64,000 nucleotides of DNA from an uncultured Roseovarius sp. (GTDB lineage: Bacteria; Pseudomonadota; Alphaproteobacteria; Rhodobacterales; Rhodobacteraceae), in contig CANMOU010000003.1 in the NCBI GenBank assembly GCA_947499555.1, positions 1 to 64,000 of the forward strand, in the 5' to 3' direction. Made by a program: the position numbers and the translations under genes. Under the pieces are notes generated by a model. It worked only from the letters and a program-made list of their open reading frames with translations, searched no databases and had not been told where the DNA came from. The first letter of the stretch is position 1. The number at the start of each line of letters is the position of its first letter. Shown piece after piece: positions 3,998 through 14,367 of the stretch.

Positions 3998-4942
3998 TCA
4001 AATAACCTGATTATCATGCGGAGAGGCATCAAATTTGGCGAGCTTGTCGCGCTTTGCCTGGCCAATCTGTCGGATTAAGGCGCCAAGCCCCATAAACTGA
4101 TTTTCCAGCGGGCTTGTCTTTCTCCAAACCATGCCAATGGTGCGTTTGGGCTTGTTTTGCGAAAACCGTGAGATTGTCACTGATGTGCCGTGCGTTTCAA
4201 GCGGCACCGCCATTTCTGGAATCAATGTTAGCCCAAGCCCGGCATCGACCATCTGGACGAGTGTTGCGAGCGAGGAGCCTTCCATCAAAAGACTTGGGTT
4301 GGATGGCATTATTTTGCAAAAGGACAGTGCCTGATCGCGAAAGCAATGGCCTTCTTCGAGCAACAAAAGCTTCATTTCCTGCAGGCGTTCCGGCGCAGGC
4401 ACTGGCTTAACCGCGTCAGCAGCAGACCGGACCAGAACGAATTCCTCGTCGAACAAAGCAAATTCGCGCAGGCTTGGTTCCGAAACCGGCAAAGCCGCGA
4501 TGACAAAGTCCAGACGCGAGCGTAAAAGGTCATCAAGAAGCGATTGTGTGACGGTCTCACGCGGGTAGAGGTCGAGCGCGGGGAGAGCCACCGACAACCG
4601 GCGAATGATTTCCGGAAGGAGATATGGTGCGACTGTTGGTATGATGCCCATCCGCAACTTGCCTTGTAGCGGACCATCGGGTTTGCGGGCCAACTCGGAC
4701 ATTTCCTCGACGTCCAACAGAACCTTGCGAGCGCGCTCGAGAAATTCCTCGCCCAGGGTAGTTAGCCGGATCTGCCGGGATGCCCGCTCAACCAGCGGCG
4801 CTCCAAGCATGGACTCTAACTCTTTGATCTGTGCCGAGAGGGCCGGTTGCGTAATTCCGCTCGCTTCAGCCGCGCGACCAAAGTGACCAAATCGAGCCAA
4901 AGCATCGAAGTACCTGAAATGCTTGAGTGTTAGGCTAACCAT
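3998..4942 (-). CDS. oxyR: OxyR, peroxide-sensing LysR regulator
   Basis: A 314-residue LysR-type regulator. The winged HTH is at residues about 1-60 (FGRAAEASGITQPALSAQIK) and the effector domain covers 90-300. The redox pair is recognisable as GHCFRDQALSFC with Cys200 and Cys209, matching the disulphide-forming Cys199/Cys208 of E. coli OxyR. It is transcribed divergently from katG, the classic arrangement in which oxidised OxyR activates the catalase-peroxidase gene. The ATG at 4942-4940 begins exactly where the LysR family normally starts. Confidence 0.95.
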   Translation of the reverse strand: MVSLTLKHFRYFDALARFGHFGRAAEASGITQPALSAQIKELESMLGAPLVERASRQIRLTTLGEEFLERARKVLLDVEEMSELARKPDGPLQGKLRMGIIPTVAPYLLPEIIRRLSVALPALDLYPRETVTQSLLDDLLRSRLDFVIAALPVSEPSLREFALFDEEFVLVRSAADAVKPVPAPERLQEMKLLLLEEGHCFRDQALSFCKIMPSNPSLLMEGSSLATLVQMVDAGLGLTLIPEMAVPLETHGTSVTISRFSQNKPKRTIGMVWRKTSPLENQFMGLGALIRQIGQAKRDKLAKFDASPHDNQVI

Positions 4943-7226
<2,284 letters not shown>

Positions 7227-7438: not shown

Positions 7439-9256
7439 TTGTCTTTTATTGATCCACCGAGCCGGTCGTCTGTGGTTTCGCCGCGAGAGCGGTCACACGA
7501 TCTGCGTCTCGTTCAAAACGACGATTCCAAAGCGCGCGACATTCGCTTTCGGCGGGCACTTGTCCTTGTGGCCAATGTCATGACGGTGTTCCTTCTGTTC
7601 GCCGCAATGGCTACGTTCCTTTCATACGGCGGTCTGATCTGGATCGAATGGGCCATGCTCGCGGCCTATGCGCTCACTCTGCCTTGGCTTTCAATCGGAC
7701 TGTGGAATTCCGTGATCGGCCTCTGGCTGGACCGAAAATTCGGGAGTAACGCGGCCAAAATTGTGAACCCTGCATTGGGGCGGATATCCGGGGATGAGCC
7801 GATCAGTACCAGGATCGCCGTTGTGATGCCTTTGCGGAATGAAGACCCTGCGCCGTCTTTTCAGCGGTTGAGACGCCTTCAAGAAGAGCTGGCAGGAACC
7901 GCCTGGGCAAAGCAGTTTGATTTTCACGTCTTAAGCGACACTGATCATCCGGGTATTGCCTTGCGCGAAGAGGCCGGAGTTGCGCAGTGGCGTCGGAGCG
8001 ACCCACAAGCCACAATTCAGTATCATCGTCGCAGCCAAAACACCGGATATAAGGCTGGTAACATCGCTGAATTTCTAGATCGATCTGGCTCAGCTTACGA
8101 CTTTTTCCTGCCGCTCGACGCGGACAGCGTCATGGGGGCTGAAACAGTTTTGCGACTGGTGCGTGTGATGCAGGTGTCACCGGAAATTGGTATGCTGCAA
8201 AGCCTTGTGACTGGCTTGCCCTCCAAGACCTTCTTTACGCGGGCCTTCCAGTTTGGCATGCGCCATGGCATGCGGTCTTACACGCTCGGGTCTGCGTGGT
8301 GGCAGGCCGATTGCGGCCCGAATTGGGGACATAACGTTCTCATTCGCACGAAACCTTTCCATCAACATTGCATGCTGCCCAAACTTCCGGGGAAAGGCGC
8401 GCTTTCAGGAGATATCCTGAGCCATGACCAGCTTGAAGCGGCGCTGATGCGGCGCGCGGGCTTGGAAGTTCGGGTGCTGGCGGAAGAAAGCGACAGCCAC
8501 GAAGAGAACCCACCTAGCCTCGCAGATTTCATTCGGCGCGAGCTTCGCTGGTGCAATGGCAATATGCAATACATCCGGCTGCTCGGCCTTCCCGGGTTAG
8601 CAAAGTTGAGCCGTGTGCAGCTGTACCTTGCGATACAGATGTATGTTGCTGCTCCAGCTTGGATGCTTTTTGTGATCCTAGGGGCAAGCTTGGCGGCGGT
8701 GCCCCAGCAATTTGTTGGTGCGCCGCTTTCGTTTGGACTTGGTCTTTTCGCTACGCTGCTAATCCTGAACCTGATGCCCAAACTTATGGGAGTGGCTCAG
8801 ATACTCGCGGACAAAGATCGCGCCGCCGAATATGGCGGGCGCGTTTCGGTCTGCGTGAGCGGGCTTGTCGAAATTCTGGTTTCTATGTTGATGGCGCCCA
8901 TTGTCGCCTTTGGGCTAAGCATTTTTCTCGTCGGCTTATTATTCAACCGCCGCGTCGGTTGGAATGCACAGCAACGTGAGCGCGAGCGCCTAGAGTGGCA
9001 CGAAGCTGCAAGCGTTCTGTGGCCGCAAACTGTTTTCGGTCTTGCTTTGACCGCTTGGCTCGTGGTTCTGGTGCCTTGGGCGCTCATTTTTGCTGCACCC
9101 ATGCTCGTCGCATTGAGCTTTGCAATTCCAATCGCTGTCGTCACGACTTCGCCGAGGCTAAGCCGCTGGTCAGTCGCAAATGGCTTATTCGACATCCCGG
9201 AAGATCGCTTATCGAACGCTCAGGACGCGCTTCCTGCCAAGGCAGACATCGCGTGA
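7439..9256 (+). CDS. opgH: glucans biosynthesis glucosyltransferase H (OpgH/MdoH)
   Basis: A 605-residue membrane GT2 glycosyltransferase that polymerises UDP-glucose into osmoregulated periplasmic glucan. Two membrane segments lie at residues about 41-63 and 70-95. The cytoplasmic catalytic domain has SDTD (166-169), DADS (227-230), LSHD (327-330) and RELRW (367-371, the Q/RxxRW motif). Several C-terminal membrane helices lie from about 390 to 570. The start is TTG at 7439, with GAAGGG 8 bases upstream. The usual partner opgG is not adjacent, which is unusual compared with the enterobacterial opgGH operon. It ends 15 bp from the convergent RibD-like gene. Confidence 0.9.
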   Translation: MSFIDPPSRSSVVSPRERSHDLRLVQNDDSKARDIRFRRALVLVANVMTVFLLFAAMATFLSYGGLIWIEWAMLAAYALTLPWLSIGLWNSVIGLWLDRKFGSNAAKIVNPALGRISGDEPISTRIAVVMPLRNEDPAPSFQRLRRLQEELAGTAWAKQFDFHVLSDTDHPGIALREEAGVAQWRRSDPQATIQYHRRSQNTGYKAGNIAEFLDRSGSAYDFFLPLDADSVMGAETVLRLVRVMQVSPEIGMLQSLVTGLPSKTFFTRAFQFGMRHGMRSYTLGSAWWQADCGPNWGHNVLIRTKPFHQHCMLPKLPGKGALSGDILSHDQLEAALMRRAGLEVRVLAEESDSHEENPPSLADFIRRELRWCNGNMQYIRLLGLPGLAKLSRVQLYLAIQMYVAAPAWMLFVILGASLAAVPQQFVGAPLSFGLGLFATLLILNLMPKLMGVAQILADKDRAAEYGGRVSVCVSGLVEILVSMLMAPIVAFGLSIFLVGLLFNRRVGWNAQQRERERLEWHEAASVLWPQTVFGLALTAWLVVLVPWALIFAAPMLVALSFAIPIAVVTTSPRLSRWSVANGLFDIPEDRLSNAQDALPAKADIA

Positions 9257-9271: not shown

Positions 9272-10048
9272 TTAGTCTTGCATCGTGCAATCAAGCATCA
9301 CATCAGAGCCGAGTGAGTAGGCGCGCATTTTTGGCCTTATCGCATGCGCCAGCAATTCGCTCGGATTTGAGAGCGTGATACTTTGAGGACCGTCTCCGAT
9401 GAGAAGAGGCGCTATTCCGAAATGAAGACGGTTCAAGAGGCCGTTTTCGAGGAACTTGGCAATGGTGATGCCGCCGCCTTCAACCAAAAGTGTCGAAAGA
9501 CCTTCGGGGCGCAGAGCCTTAGTGATTTCATGTGGGTCAATGACACCCTTTTTCAGAGGCAGCCGGATCACCGTAACGCCCTCCGGCCGAGGCCGGTCCA
9601 CGCTCTGAATCACGATGCGCCGTGTCCCATCGCTTGCAAAAAGCGGCGCGTCATCCGGCAGCCGGCCATTCGGGTCAATCACGATGCGCGCGGGGTTTTT
9701 CCCTTCGCAAAGTCTTACCGTAAGCCGGGAACTGTCATGCAGCGCTGTACGCACACCGATAATGACACCATCAACAAGCGCACGAATCCGGTGCAAATGC
9801 GCGAGCCCGTCTGGGCCAGAGACATCGCGCGCGTCACCAGTTACCGTCGCGACGCGCCCATCAAGTGATTGCCCAATTTGCGCCAGGGCAAATGGTCCCT
9901 GATCGCGGCGCGCCAAGGGTGAATAGAGATCAAGCGCTGCTTTTTCGCCAGAGGTCCAAGTGTTCCCGCAGGAACAAGATATGCGATTCCTCAAATGCAG
10001 CAGATGGTTCCAAGTTCTGTCGGTCATGTTTACTTGCATTTCACTCAT
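9272..10048 (-). CDS. RibD C-terminal (reductase) family protein
   Basis: A 258-residue protein matching the reductase half of RibD / dihydrofolate reductase-like fold: QSLDGRVA around residue 60-67, a GVRTALHDSSRLTVR segment near 98-112, LVEGG at 188-192 and APLLIGDG at 213-220. The deaminase domain of RibD (HAE and PCxxC motifs) is absent. The first 50 residues are atypical and contain Cys25 and Cys27. NAD(P)H-dependent reduction of a pyrimidine- or pterin-type ribityl/carbonyl group is the family reaction. The gene starts 3 bp after the methyltransferase stop and is the last gene of the leftward cluster with a PTPS-like protein, so a role in a dedicated pterin-like pathway rather than riboflavin synthesis is inferred. 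Start choice is uncertain (10048 or 10027). Confidence 0.8.
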   Translation of the reverse strand: MSEMQVNMTDRTWNHLLHLRNRISCSCGNTWTSGEKAALDLYSPLARRDQGPFALAQIGQSLDGRVATVTGDARDVSGPDGLAHLHRIRALVDGVIIGVRTALHDSSRLTVRLCEGKNPARIVIDPNGRLPDDAPLFASDGTRRIVIQSVDRPRPEGVTVIRLPLKKGVIDPHEITKALRPEGLSTLLVEGGGITIAKFLENGLLNRLHFGIAPLLIGDGPQSITLSNPSELLAHAIRPKMRAYSLGSDVMLDCTMQD

Positions 10049-10051
10049 CTC

Positions 10052-10816
10052 TTACGGCTTGCCGGTTGGTTTCGCCAACAGATCGACATGGCCAATCATA
10101 CAGGAGATTTCATGTGGGCTTTTGCGCCGGGCCTGCCACCAGTCAGTTGCACATTCTGCGCCTGCATCGTCTGCCGCCTGCGCAATCCCTTTGACGAGCT
10201 CCAAGACCATTTCTTCCATGCCATGGCTAAGCTGCCAGGGGCTTTGAGCGTTCTCAACGGCAAACCCTGCATCTTGCAGAACCTCAATGGTGCGGTTGGC
10301 TGCATCTGGTCCAAGCGCTGGGCCAAATCCCTTGTCGGTGTGTTGATGCCTGTTGAACATCGCCTTGATCTCTTCATCGGTTGGATCCGTGGGCGCCCAG
10401 CTCATTGTGCCGTCATAGGTCAATGCTGCATAAAACGGCACGTCCAATCGTGCGATTAACGCAATCAGCCAGGGCTCGGAAACCAGATCCAGCAATGCCG
10501 AGGCAGTCACCAGCGTCACACCTTCGAGCGGAAGATCTTCGATCTTGTTGAGATCCATCAGGTAAGTTTCAGCGGATAACCCAGTCTGTTCCGCTGCTCT
10601 CTTGAGCAGTCCTGAATCGCTATCGACGAGGCGCCAAACGGTATGCGGCGGCAACAAGCCGGACAGGGCCCGTGCGGTGGCGCCCGTGCCGCATCCAAGA
10701 TCGAGAATGATCGGATCCGGCCCAGCCAACAGCGCCGCTTGCTGCATCAGGTGTTTGTCGCGCGCTGCAAGATCGGCTGGCTCGCGTAGGGCCAACCAAT
10801 CGGCCGAGAAACTCAT
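10052..10816 (-). CDS. class I SAM-dependent methyltransferase
   Basis: A 254-residue protein with motif I LDLGCGTG at residues 38-45 and an acidic post-I Asp (LVDSDSG), i.e. a Rossmann methyltransferase. The substrate cannot be read from the sequence. Its ATG overlaps the stop of the PTPS-like gene (ATGA at 10816-10813), and the RibD-like gene starts 3 bp after its stop. The tight coupling on both sides argues that it modifies the product or intermediate of the same pathway. Confidence 0.85.
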   Translation of the reverse strand: MSFSADWLALREPADLAARDKHLMQQAALLAGPDPIILDLGCGTGATARALSGLLPPHTVWRLVDSDSGLLKRAAEQTGLSAETYLMDLNKIEDLPLEGVTLVTASALLDLVSEPWLIALIARLDVPFYAALTYDGTMSWAPTDPTDEEIKAMFNRHQHTDKGFGPALGPDAANRTIEVLQDAGFAVENAQSPWQLSHGMEEMVLELVKGIAQAADDAGAECATDWWQARRKSPHEISCMIGHVDLLAKPTGKP

Positions 10817-11214
10817 GCCGAGATGTCTCCTTCGTACCAGGCACGCGCGACATGGCTTTCGTGCAGCAAGATCCTGATACGTTTGATCCGGCCCTCATCG
10901 GCCAGTTTGCCCAGGCGAACCTGCTCCGCGATCTGCTGAAAGATGTGATGGCAAAGAAACTCGGTTGTCGTGAACTTCCCCTTGAATTCCGCATGTTCAT
11001 CGAGGTTTTTGTAGCGCAGCGGCTCAAGCGCCTTTGCCAAAGCCTCTGTTGCAAGGCCAATGTCCGCTACAAGACCGTGTTCGTCGATGTCTTCGGAAAA
11101 GAACGCGGCATCAACTGTGAATGTCGCGCCATGCATGCCCTGTGCCGGGCCAAAGACACCGGAAGGAAGCGAATGCGCAATCATGATGTGGTCACGAACT
11201 TCAACAGCAAACAT
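10813..11214 (-). CDS. 6-pyruvoyl-tetrahydropterin synthase / QueD family protein, divergent active site
   Basis: A 133-residue protein of PTPS/QueD length and layout: first His at 14 (IAHS), an HG motif at 28-29, VADIG at 49-53, a threonine-rich TTTEFL at 82-87, and the pterin-anchoring Glu119 in LHES. Key positions differ from the family: the HGH zinc motif reads HGA, no Cys is found in the usual catalytic position before it, and the Asp-His pair reads Asp72-Glu73. It may therefore not be a standard QueD or PTPS enzyme. A GAGGAAC site precedes the ATG. It lies 9 bp after the dehydrogenase gene and overlaps the methyltransferase gene. Confidence 0.85.
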   Translation of the reverse strand: MFAVEVRDHIMIAHSLPSGVFGPAQGMHGATFTVDAAFFSEDIDEHGLVADIGLATEALAKALEPLRYKNLDEHAEFKGKFTTTEFLCHHIFQQIAEQVRLGKLADEGRIKRIRILLHESHVARAWYEGDISA

Positions 11215-11223
11215 TTGGGTTCC

Positions 11224-12177
11224 TCAATTCTGATTATAGCAGACGCGGTGGCAGAGCGTCATGGGATCGGACAAGATTGATCCGTAGGCTTCGGGCAGGT
11301 CGTCAAACGCGGTTTCTCCTGAGACCAAGATATCAAGCGCCGGATCACATAACAGCTGCAGGGCTTTGACCATTCGCCTTCTGTGGCTCCATCGCGGACG
11401 CCTGTCAGGCGATACTTGTCCGACTTGCGAACTGATGAGGCGAAGACGGCGGCTATGAAAGGCGCCGCCCAGCGGGGCAGGGATGGTGCCTTCGCCGTAC
11501 CAGCTTGCCTCGATGATTGCGGCTTCGTTCCCAGCACAATTCATGGCTGATTCCAGACCACCGCTGGCGCCGGACAGATTGACAACGATATCGCACTCTT
11601 GCGGTGCGTTGTCCGGTGTCGCAAAGCCGCAGCCGAGCTGGGAGGCGATGCCCGAGCGATCCGGGTTGATGTCCATGAGTGTTACATCTGTGCCAGGCAT
11701 CCTAGAAGCAAGGTACCCCGTCAGCGCACCAACAACACCGGCTCCGATAATCAGTATCTTGTCTCCAGGTCCGGCGTTGGCATCCCACAGAATGTTAAGC
11801 GCCGTTTCCATATTCGCAGCCAGAACTGCGCGCTCAGGTGGCAGAGCAGAGGGAAGCGGGTTCAAAGCGGTTTCCGGCAGGCGAAACTCTGTCTGGTGAG
11901 GGTGCAGAGCGAAAACGGTTGCGCCCTTATATCTACCTTCCAGAACCCGCCCCACCGCGCAGTAGCCGTATTTGACGGGATACGGAAAGTCGCCCTCCTG
12001 CGCCGGGCCGCGCATCCGTATGTATTCCGCTTCCGGAACAGTTCCTTCAAAGACCTTGCGTTCCGTTCCGCGGCTTATGCCGGAATAAAGCGTCTTGACC
12101 AAGACGCCCTCTCCGTGCGCTGCGGGACGGATTCCTGCTTGTGTCGGACCGACACACCAAAGGGCCTTGGCGGACAT
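11224..12177 (-). CDS. medium-chain dehydrogenase/reductase, BchC-like, zinc-less
   Basis: A 317-residue MDR-superfamily oxidoreductase. The GroES-like N-terminal half carries SGISRGTE (32-39) where zinc alcohol dehydrogenases have a catalytic Cys, resembling the SGISTGTE of bacteriochlorophyllide dehydrogenase BchC. The four-Cys structural zinc loop is absent. A Rossmann fold with GAGVVG is at 145-150, followed by Asp in LMDIN, which favours NAD over NADP. AGGAAG precedes the ATG. It belongs to the pterin-like cluster (9 bp before the PTPS-like gene); the substrate is unknown, probably a secondary alcohol/ketone. Confidence 0.82.
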   Translation of the reverse strand: MSAKALWCVGPTQAGIRPAAHGEGVLVKTLYSGISRGTERKVFEGTVPEAEYIRMRGPAQEGDFPYPVKYGYCAVGRVLEGRYKGATVFALHPHQTEFRLPETALNPLPSALPPERAVLAANMETALNILWDANAGPGDKILIIGAGVVGALTGYLASRMPGTDVTLMDINPDRSGIASQLGCGFATPDNAPQECDIVVNLSGASGGLESAMNCAGNEAAIIEASWYGEGTIPAPLGGAFHSRRLRLISSQVGQVSPDRRPRWSHRRRMVKALQLLCDPALDILVSGETAFDDLPEAYGSILSDPMTLCHRVCYNQN

Positions 12178-12408
12178 ATCGGATTAGTCTTCCTATTGGA
12201 TTTCGCGGTTACGGTGAAGAAGAGTAAGGACCATGGGCATCTCTTTAATTTTGTACAGTTAGAACGAAACCACCTGCATCAAGCTGCATGCGACACTTGG
12301 CGCGGAGTGTCAGCTGAGGTGGGTAAAGGCCCGGGCAAGGCAGCAAAAACGATGCTGGCTTTTTCTGCCGCATCTATTGGAACCGATATTCTTTTCTCTG
12401 TCATGCGC
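12178..12408. other. 231-bp gap inside the pterin-like cluster
   Basis: It lies between the glycosyltransferase and the dehydrogenase, both leftward. A 41-codon minus-strand frame (12404-12279) starts 4 bases after the glycosyltransferase stop but uses rare ATA/AGA codons and has no clear ribosome-binding site, so it is probably not a gene. A second promoter for the four downstream genes may lie here: the minus strand has a TACAAAAT-like box around 12250-12257. Nothing else is supported. Confidence 0.3.
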
Positions 12409-13494
12409 TCAGGTCTCGTGCACTGGCGTCAGCGTATTGCGCAGCAGAACCTTTTCGACGGCCTCGACCGTGCTGGCCCAGCTTGGCAAAGCCGCGCCCG
12501 CACGTGCGGAGGCTGACACCATTCGAGCACGGCAATCATCGTCGTTGAGCACCTTTGCCAGCGCGCCTGCAAACTCTAACGGGTCATCGGGTGGAACAAG
12601 AACGCCAGCATCTGGTGCAACAGTCTCGGATACCGCGCCGACCTTGCAGGAAATGATCGGTAGGCCGTGCATCATGGCTTCGTCGAATACAAGACCGTAC
12701 CCTTCATATCGCGTGGCCAATGCGAAGATGCTCGATTGCGCGTAAAGCGTTGCCAGTTCGTCATCGGAGACGCGCCCTGCAATTCTCACGCGTTCATTCA
12801 AATCAAGCTTTGCCACGAGGCGCGCAAGCTCTGAAGCGTATTCAGTGCTAAAGGCGCCACCTGCGATCACGGCGTTCCAGGGCAGAGACTTAATATGCGC
12901 CAATGCTTCTATCAGGACGTCATGACCTTTGCGCGGCACCTGAATGCCCACCGACAGGATCAGGGGAGGATCAACCTTGGGTTTGGATACCTTGCTGTGG
13001 TCCGTGCCCGGCCCGGCGACGGTGATGCGAGTTTCATCAACACCGTAGTCTGTCCTCAGTACATTGGCCGTGTGAGGGCTCGGAACCAGAATCTGCGAGA
13101 CCTGCTGAAGGTTTTGCCGCTCAGAGTCCCGCAAGCTTGAGCGATCACTATCAGAAAGCCCGGTTTCCAAAGCCAAAGGATGATGGATGAGGGCGACAAT
13201 AGGGGCGCTGATTGACGCCATGACGGTTGAATCGAATGCGCCGAGTGCCAGGCCATCAATGATGATTGGCTGATTCTCGCAAACCGTGGAAAGTTGACGT
13301 GCTGCATCGCTCAGGTCATCGCGAGTCGGGTCCGGAAAACTGCCCCCCAAACTAAGAAGCGTGATATCCCATCCCGAATGACGTAGCCCGTTGATCAGTT
13401 TGCGGTCGAAGCTGTAACCGCCGGTGAGGGACGCGATATCCCCTGGAACAGCAAAAGTTGCTCTCCGTTTGGTTATGCAGTCTTTTTCAATCAT
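12409..13494 (-). CDS. GT4-family glycosyltransferase
   Basis: A 361-residue GT-B enzyme. The N-terminal acceptor domain begins with AVPGDIASLTGGYSFD, and the C-terminal nucleotide-sugar domain has SVGIQVPRKGHD (181-192) and the EX7E motif EGYGLVFDE at 264-272. It has no membrane segment, so it is cytoplasmic. It probably transfers a sugar from a nucleotide donor to a small molecule or lipid. It is the first gene of the leftward cluster, separated from the dehydrogenase by 231 bp. Glycosylation of a pterin, as done by cyanobacterial PgtA, is an attractive but unproven role. Confidence 0.88.
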   Translation of the reverse strand: MIEKDCITKRRATFAVPGDIASLTGGYSFDRKLINGLRHSGWDITLLSLGGSFPDPTRDDLSDAARQLSTVCENQPIIIDGLALGAFDSTVMASISAPIVALIHHPLALETGLSDSDRSSLRDSERQNLQQVSQILVPSPHTANVLRTDYGVDETRITVAGPGTDHSKVSKPKVDPPLILSVGIQVPRKGHDVLIEALAHIKSLPWNAVIAGGAFSTEYASELARLVAKLDLNERVRIAGRVSDDELATLYAQSSIFALATRYEGYGLVFDEAMMHGLPIISCKVGAVSETVAPDAGVLVPPDDPLEFAGALAKVLNDDDCRARMVSASARAGAALPSWASTVEAVEKVLLRNTLTPVHET

Positions 13495-13785: not shown

Positions 13786-14367
13786 ATGCGAAACCTTGCT
13801 GCTTTCGCCGCCTGCGCCACCCTAGCATCTGTCGCACATGCCGACATGGCGCGTTACGAACTCGATCCAACGCATACGGCCATCTATTTCAAGGTTGACC
13901 ACATTGGTTATGCCAAGACGCTGGGAATTTTTACGGGACTGAGCGGCAGTTTCTTTTACGATGATGAAACTCAAGAGCTGAAGGATGTGAAGGTCACGAT
14001 CCAGGCCGACAGCGTTGATACGTTTAACGAAGCCCGCGACAACCATGTCCGAAATAAAGACTTCCTGCATGTCAGTGAGCATCCGGAAATAATGTTTTCG
14101 GCCTCTGGCGGCACACCATCGTCGGATACGAGTGGAACTGTTACCGGTGACCTGACGATCTTGGGCCAAACGCAGCCTATCACCCTGACCGTTCAGCTTA
14201 ATAAAGTCGGGGAATACCCGTTTGGCCACAAACGCGAAGTCTTGGGTCTGTCCATGAGCACCTCTATCATGCGCAGCGACTTTGGCATGACTTATGCGGT
14301 TGAAAACGGGCTTGTCGGGGATGAAGTCACGATAAACATCGAAACCGAAGCAATGAAAATGGAATAG
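13786..14367 (+). CDS. YceI-family periplasmic polyisoprenoid-binding protein
   Basis: A 193-residue secreted lipocalin-like protein. Residues 1-19 are a signal peptide ending VAHA, cleaved before Asp20. The mature part starts with YELDPTHTAIYFKVDHIGY, the YceI hallmark, and runs through conserved segments such as LTILGQTQPITL. Family members bind isoprenoid chains (for example ubiquinone precursors) in a beta barrel and respond to stress or pH. It has a strong ribosome-binding site and is monocistronic, ending in a bidirectional terminator. Confidence 0.93.
   Translation: MRNLAAFAACATLASVAHADMARYELDPTHTAIYFKVDHIGYAKTLGIFTGLSGSFFYDDETQELKDVKVTIQADSVDTFNEARDNHVRNKDFLHVSEHPEIMFSASGGTPSSDTSGTVTGDLTILGQTQPITLTVQLNKVGEYPFGHKREVLGLSMSTSIMRSDFGMTYAVENGLVGDEVTINIETEAMKME

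Follow-up and report, generated by a model that had tools for sequence, protein, structure and literature searches.

The question raised by the first part of a 64,000-nucleotide stretch from an uncultured Roseovarius sp. (GenBank assembly GCA_947499555.1, contig CANMOU010000003.1, positions 1 to 64,000; hereafter the window) is what five adjoining minus-strand genes might make together. They encode a GT4 glycosyltransferase, a medium-chain dehydrogenase (ADH), a small protein of the PTPS-IV subfamily, a methyltransferase (MT) and a RibD_C-type reductase (RED). An earlier note, drawn from the sequence alone, had proposed a dedicated pathway to a pterin-like and possibly glycosylated metabolite, an interpretation which is partly supported by the present analysis. 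Comparison of loci established the gene set, its conservation, the co-occurrence of its members and the residue states of its proteins; the set is real, conserved, widespread, patchy and mobile. It may represent a dedicated pathway that departs from riboflavin synthesis at its first step and ends in a pterin-type compound bearing methyl, sugar and ribityl groups; we are about half convinced of this reading, for which we infer the substrates, the order of steps and the product.

A conserved and patchily distributed gene set

Open reading frames for all five genes were found where the earlier note had placed them, and Pfam searches agree with its assignments of the GT4, PTPS, methyltransferase and RibD-type genes. 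The block comprises GT4 (12409-13494, 361 aa; Glycos_transf_1, E=4e-33), ADH (11224-12177, 317 aa; below every Pfam cut-off), the PTPS-IV gene (10813-11214, 133 aa; PTPS, E=2e-21; FGPAQ, HGA and Glu119), MT of the class I SAM-dependent type (10052-10816, 254 aa; Methyltransf_25, E=2e-7) and RED (9272-10048, 258 aa; RibD_C, E=5e-33). The PTPS and MT genes share the 4-bp ATGA overlap, and MT and RED the 3-bp gap, that had been described; 9 bp lie between ADH and PTPS, and GT4 is joined less tightly because 231 bp separate it from ADH. The BchC-like label given to ADH holds in so far as BchC (TIGR01202) is its best NCBIfam model, yet at 48.6 bits against an equivalog cut-off of 291.25 the protein is only distantly BchC-like. 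In ADH the sequence GISRGTE occupies what we take to be the place of the Cys motif found in zinc-type relatives.

A collection scan returned at least 595 stretches, of which 498 were confirmed, and neighbour families were defined by clustering of codon-scored open reading frames. Among the best 80 of the 498 by score (the close loci), a sample biased to close relatives, PTPS was found in 80, MT in 79, ADH in 77, RED in 76, GT4 in 54 and all five in 52; where the stretch measured at least 20 kb (54 of the 80), PTPS, ADH, MT and RED were present in 54/54 and GT4 as well in 43/54. An even draw of Alphaproteobacteria contained PTPS-IV in 36 of 289 genomes, and 34 of these loci, leaving out the window genome and G260, whose genus was already represented by two genomes, were compared with 40 control stretches placed by hand at round coordinates in 19 of the 34 genomes. 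ADH accompanied PTPS-IV in 33 of the 34 loci, GT4 in 32, MT in 30, RED in 26 and all four in 23, some of these stretches ending at contig ends, while the controls yielded 0, 1, 1 and 0 occurrences of ADH, GT4, MT and RED, respectively. L229, the one control in which GT4 and MT were found, is from a genome, G233, whose PTPS locus is without these two genes, and is probably part of the same gene set.

The earlier note had held that a scattering of the homologous genes in relatives would undermine a dedicated pathway, and this was examined in the family of the window genome, where PTPS-IV is present in 13 of 149 genomes. At E<=1e-10 an ADH match is present in 32 of these genomes, scoring 372 bits or more in 13 and 80 bits or less in 19, and the 13 genomes with PTPS-IV are the same 13 that have the high-scoring ADH, the two draws of 149 genomes being taken as identical (genomes without a match were not all listed). 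In 11 of the 13 the distance between the two genes is at most 3 kb, in one it is 11 kb, and in one they are on separate contigs. The idea of a dedicated pathway withstood this check. Across loci, the pairwise distances of any two of the five proteins were also correlated (ten pairs, rho 0.70-0.87, a level reached by 0 of 200 permutations). Genome kinship adds to both the co-occurrence and the correlation figures; the patchiness of the set argues for its inheritance as a unit. Conservation of the five-gene order in Rhodobacteraceae, which had been put forward as a check, is seen in part: the gene set is kept, but GT4 and ADH shift even between close relatives, and the set is both patchy in the family and extends to Actinobacteria. 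The order ADH-PTPS-GT4-MT recurs in Alphaproteobacteria, one gammaproteobacterium and Actinobacteria, on plasmids too, often with RED or GTP cyclohydrolase II (GCHII) alongside; GT4 stands between PTPS and MT in the actinobacterial loci and in most other alphaproteobacterial loci, and upstream of ADH in the window.

PTPS-IV, its neighbourhood with GCHII and RibD_C genes, and the structure of its member SCO6650 are already known. The subfamily of COG0720 (AGeNNT cluster-node 62, 561 sequences) was delineated in PMC5445326, where FGPAQ, shared by the window protein, is its signature, where PF00925 (GTP cyclohydrolase II, there labelled FolE2) and PF01872 (the RibD C-terminal domain) are its neighbours and where its function is left open; the dehydrogenase, glycosyltransferase, methyltransferase and lipid genes are unmentioned in the part of that account drawn on. 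The remark of the earlier note that no described pathway contains this set therefore needs amending for the PTPS-IV neighbourhood, and stands for the product: a literature search by title and start of abstract, thin in its coverage of subscription papers, found no paper describing the gene set or its product. What is new, as far as the literature was searched, is the gene set in its full breadth, the test of co-occurrence, the residue of RED described below and a sister clade of PTPS-IV. PTPS-IV thereby gains steady partners, a likely precursor in the undeaminated GCHII product, a reductase with a selectivity residue and a defined gene set.

Residue states of PTPS-IV and RED

Among solved structures the sole match of the window PTPS-IV protein at E<=0.1, and hence its closest solved relative, was SCO6650 (PDB 3d7j, E=3e-35), presumably from Streptomyces coelicolor judging by its SCO name; SCO6650 reportedly does not catalyse the PTPS reaction, and we know of no reaction assigned to this solved member. 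FGPAQ occupies residues 21-25 of the window protein, and in an alignment of 122 PTPS-IV proteins F, G, P and A are each found in 120/120 and Q in 118/120 non-gap rows. At the positions which we take to hold the catalytic Cys, the catalytic His, the zinc His triad and the ring-holding Glu, Cys is replaced by Ala (120/120 non-gap rows) and the catalytic His by Tyr or Phe (121/122), the first two zinc His are kept and the third is Ala (121/121 non-gap rows, giving HGA for HGH), and Glu is retained throughout (122/122). Five QueD controls, one of them from the window's own genome, retain Cys, catalytic His, the zinc His triad and Glu. As the catalytic residues have been lost and Glu has been kept, a PTPS or QueD reaction appears unlikely for PTPS-IV and binding of a pterin-type ring likely. 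A role in queuosine synthesis was rejected, since the genome has a separate canonical HGH QueD and PTPS-IV is without the QueD residues.

The neighbourhood of a PTPS fold with a glycosyltransferase and a dehydrogenase would suit a classical tetrahydropterin glycoside made, as biopterin glucosides are, by GTP cyclohydrolase I followed by a genuine PTPS reaction. We regard this as improbable: PTPS-IV lacks the catalytic Cys, the catalytic His and one zinc ligand, SCO6650 is said to be without PTPS activity, and profiles and Pfam scans of the neighbour families that recur (those seen in at least 5 close loci or at least 3 others, one ABC-type family being judged by eye) brought up GTP cyclohydrolase II, not I, although no search was aimed at GTP cyclohydrolase I. 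Further recurrent families in these neighbourhoods comprise transporters, regulators and housekeeping genes.

The loss of catalytic residues is shared with a second group of actinobacterial proteins. In the phylum Actinobacteria (that of G436, a genome titled Aquiluna which carries the locus L054 considered below) 42 of 396 genomes gave a match at E<=1e-8; loci were read in 30 of these and divide into 10 of the PTPS-IV type (FGPAQ and HGA in nine, the tenth incomplete), 16 that combine FGPA with HGH, and 4 that have the QueD Cys. All 16 FGPA/HGH loci (L161, L163, L166-L179) have ADH, GT4 and RED matches inside 2.4-3.3 kb, as compared to 0/4 QueD-Cys loci, and the RED-ADH-PTPS-GT4 set therefore exists in a further actinobacterial lineage. 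The 16 FGPA/HGH proteins form one clade in the tree, the sister clade (support 0.995), and the 122 PTPS-IV proteins another (support 0.848); in the former the zinc His are intact and, as in PTPS-IV, Cys and the catalytic His are lost, which suggests that zinc was probably lost later, in PTPS-IV.

RED matches RibD_C only, over residues 55-231 of its 258, scores under the NCBIfam RibD cut-offs and is without the N-terminal deaminase domain. Its best solved relatives, 6p8c and 2azn, are reductases of the type that acts on 2,5-diamino-6-ribosylamino-4(3H)-pyrimidinone 5'-phosphate (DAROPP). Its Asp and Arg, which we take to line the ribose-phosphate site, are kept in 99/99 RED proteins each. The position of Escherichia coli RibD Lys152 (Lys152/Lys151) is filled in the same 99 proteins by Gln (83, including the window RED), His (13), Ser (2) or Leu (1) and never by Lys, while the RibD of the same genome has Lys and both 2azn and 6p8c have Asn. 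Lys at this place favours the deaminated substrate and the Thr of yeast favours DAROPP, archaea having Asn (PMC3631187). Given that Lys never occurs at this selectivity position, RED probably acts before deamination, reducing the undeaminated cyclohydrolase product, and the RED residue and the Glu of PTPS-IV agree in pointing to a 2-amino-4-oxo compound. The archaeal and fungal DAROPP reductases (2azn, 6p8c, yeast RIB7) resemble RED in being stand-alone and in having no selectivity Lys; RED differs from them in its Gln or His in place of Asn or Thr, in an Arg where 2azn and 6p8c have His, and in being clustered with PTPS-IV.

A proposed branch off riboflavin synthesis

In the pathway that we propose, GCHII (RibA), encoded elsewhere in the genome, would make DAROPP, which RED would reduce directly to the ribityl compound DARIPP, bypassing the deamination by RibD. 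Because DAROPP would be reduced without deamination, the 2-amino-4-oxo (pterin-type) edge would be kept, and PTPS-IV may grip this edge by its conserved Glu, its step being most likely ring closure or tautomerisation. ADH would carry out redox chemistry at the side-chain carbinol, MT would methylate the product and GT4 would transfer a sugar, perhaps onto the ribityl chain, giving as end product a methylated, glycosylated ribityl-pterin or ribityl-diaminopyrimidine. The dedicated pterin-like pathway of the earlier note is supported as a co-inherited gene set with GT4 in its core which probably acts on a GTP-derived 2-amino-4-oxo ring, its product and chemistry staying at the level of prediction. 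If true, the cluster represents an undescribed bacterial branch off riboflavin synthesis towards a pterin-type glycoside, which may be bound to lipid in some lineages.

A GTP cyclohydrolase gene, which the earlier note had suggested looking for, is indeed near the cluster in many relatives, albeit of type II (RibA) rather than type I, and lies elsewhere in the Roseovarius genome. RibA is within the cluster in 40 of the 80 close loci, in 10 of the 34 alphaproteobacterial loci and in none of the 40 controls, and GCHII is present in eight of the nine actinobacterial loci L181-L189, L188 having none. Two genes of the GCHII family are present in the window's own genome, namely an intact RibA of Tyr type at C1:1106962 (520 bits to the profile of cluster RibA) and a RibBA-like protein at C1:720125 (L086) whose GCHII half is strongly diverged (26.9 bits); in the window cluster a RibD_C gene is adjacent and GCHII is absent.

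In the actinobacterial loci L182-L187 GCHII has Met at the position which we take to be the switch of its product, and a creatininase-family gene (Pfam Creatininase) is adjacent in 6/6; in L181 and L189 the residue is Tyr and creatininase was seen in 0/2, L189 being only 3.8 kb long. The order PTPS, GT4, MT, LPG_synthase_TM, creatininase and GCHII in L182-L187 appears to fit the numbering SCO6650-SCO6655 of Streptomyces coelicolor, and SCO6655, with Met at the switch site, is said to stop at a formylated compound. In Sinorhizobium and Brucella a creatininase relative removes the formyl group from that compound (PMC9478397). Met-type GCHII with creatininase thus fits a formylated intermediate and its formamidase, with entry from GTP to DAROPP. 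The window cluster differs from L182-L187 in having neither gene, RED adjoining MT instead. The alphaproteobacterial GCHII that were read are of Tyr type, and creatininase was found near PTPS-IV in none of L003-L082.

Several observations weigh against the proposed branch. RibA is outside the window cluster, and half of the close loci, like 24 of the 34 others, do not have it in the stretch. Alphaproteobacterial creatininase neighbours accompany a Tyr-type GCHII (L121, with weaker matches in L132 and L133) or stand in stretches without GCHII (L125, L126, L131), and the actinobacterial correlation of Met with creatininase therefore fails in Alphaproteobacteria. RED is absent from the stretch in 8 of the 34 alphaproteobacterial loci, some of them cut off by contig ends, and was matched in just two of the nine loci L181-L189, at 64-78 bits. 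The set is also dispersed in G233 (L147, L229), where ADH alone is near PTPS and GT4 and MT are some 50 kb off, and on a plasmid of Streptomyces sp. NBC_00028 (L236) PTPS-IV stands alone, no partner gene appearing in the 18 kb shown. Reduction of the chain to ribityl moreover leaves the need for a PTPS-fold enzyme unexplained, and the proposal as a whole rests on comparison of sequences, from which we infer the product.

On a rival reading PTPS-IV, a T-fold relative of GTP cyclohydrolase I, could rearrange DAROPP and close its ring to give dihydroneopterin monophosphate, with RED as a dihydropterin reductase and ADH, MT and GT4 modifying the C6 side chain. Such a rearrangement is in keeping with the association of GCHII and PTPS-IV in both Alphaproteobacteria and Actinobacteria, with the retained Glu anchor and with the dropping of the PTPS-reaction Cys and catalytic His in PTPS-IV and the sister clade alike. 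We nevertheless consider it unlikely, as the Asp and Arg of RED at the presumed ribose-phosphate site suggest that a phosphoribosyl substrate is still bound, and as PTPS-IV is without a zinc ligand that chemistry of the GTP cyclohydrolase I kind presumably wants.

RED and RibA are riboflavin-pathway folds and might simply constitute a back-up route, supplying ribityl pyrimidine for flavin or lumazine. The genome, however, already has a complete RibD (L083), no riboflavin role is known for ADH, PTPS-IV, MT or GT4, and a list of 15 S. coelicolor genes whose expression opposes the predicted flux, most of them being on in the stationary phase, includes SCO6655 (PMC2853524). The last point is weak, as the list also contains SCO2687, another GTP cyclohydrolase II, and so does not single out SCO6655; a back-up route nonetheless strikes us as very improbable. 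A role of PTPS-IV in F420 synthesis, whose sole support is its mention as unpublished in PMC5041015, is scarcely credible: no match to CofD (PF01933) was obtained in the window's genome, which is 99.9% complete, the same search being positive in 10 of 14 control genomes, and for this organism, barring an unrecognisable CofD, we take the role as refuted.

Lipid genes, flanking genes and plasmids

The branch from riboflavin synthesis proposed above may not end with the glycoside in every lineage. The 80 close loci include genes for a CDP-alcohol phosphatidyltransferase (CDP) in 41, a sulfatase/LtaS-like protein in 39, the flippase-like LPG_synthase_TM in 36, an inositol monophosphatase-like protein in 55 and an FkbM methyltransferase in 50, and in several of them the CDP, sulfatase and LPG_synthase_TM genes overlap by a few bases. 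Profile searches of the 34 alphaproteobacterial loci as compared to the 40 controls gave CDP 9 vs 0, FkbM 6 vs 0, sulfatase 5 vs 1 (p=0.07), LPG_synthase_TM 0 vs 0 and the inositol monophosphatase-like family 0 vs 1, while in L181-L189 the core is accompanied by CDP in seven of nine and by LPG_synthase_TM in eight of nine. The window's own genome gave no match to the CDP-OH phosphatidyltransferase, LPG_synthase_TM or LtaS/sulfatase-like alignments in a search made without a positive-control genome. These genes hint at a lipid-linked product as an option for those relatives that have them, about half of the close ones; it is not supported for the window genome.

The same comparison brought out the genes flanking the block. 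An MdoH-type glucosyltransferase gene (7439-9256, plus strand) is convergent with RED and a YceI-family gene (13786-14367, plus strand) is divergent from GT4, and both families recur beside PTPS-IV (MdoH 8 vs 0 and YceI 7 vs 0 in the 34 loci and 40 controls), as does cytochrome b561 (7 vs 0; p 0.001-0.003 for the three, uncorrected for 15 profiles). The MdoH and YceI flanks of the window are candidate cluster members, no more.

It is conceivable, though to our minds doubtful, that the full pathway makes a new membrane lipid, a methylated and glycosylated pterin-type ribityl ring on a phosphatidyl group, encoded by a cassette that moves between Proteobacteria and Actinobacteria. The CDP-alcohol phosphatidyltransferase would attach the ring to the phosphatidyl group, the LPG_synthase_TM protein would carry the lipid across the membrane, and the LtaS/sulfatase-like enzyme would pass the product on, perhaps to the periplasmic glucans made by MdoH; alternatively, YceI and cytochrome b561, which recur as neighbours, might use the product as a redox partner. 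The window genome would on this account hold a shortened pathway, which stops at a soluble glycoside as end product.

Matches were obtained in 20 of 72,556 plasmid records, five of which, including that of NBC_00028, were opened. Plasmid pOB3b1 of Methylosinus trichosporium OB3b has mdoH, ADH-PTPS-GT4, a hypothetical protein at the place of MT, and RED; a plasmid of Rhizobium sp. SL42 groups sulfatase, LPG_synthase_TM, FkbM methyltransferase, CDP-alcohol phosphatidyltransferase, ribA, ADH-PTPS-GT4-MT, RED and cytochrome b; a plasmid record of the gammaproteobacterium Thiodictyon has ADH-PTPS-GT4-MT-cytochrome b-RED-CDP; and a 59 kb plasmid of Microbacterium sp. SGAir0570, typed as mobilizable, has CDP-ADH-PTPS-GT4-MT-LPG_synthase_TM and RED. 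In 5/5 opened records the PTPS-IV gene is annotated as 6-carboxytetrahydropterin synthase and tagged with queuosine biosynthesis, an annotation which is probably wrong. Clusters like those of Rhodobacteraceae were also seen in records titled Aquiluna, Micrococcales and Cellulomonadaceae (L054, L019, L022, L039); for L054, transfer rather than contamination is possible, as the contig that carries this locus is 748 kb long in a genome of 1.5 Mb.

A scan for promoters and terminators was uninformative, finding 1 promoter-like site where 2.6 were expected and 4 terminator-like sites where 4.6 were expected. Elsewhere in the window, a gene for an OxyR-type LysR regulator adjoins one for a 725-aa haem peroxidase (Pfam peroxidase) that resembles catalase-peroxidase KatG by eye (3998-7226), and a DUF5681 protein gene adjoins that of an N6/N4 DNA methyltransferase with a ParB-like N-terminus (149-2217).

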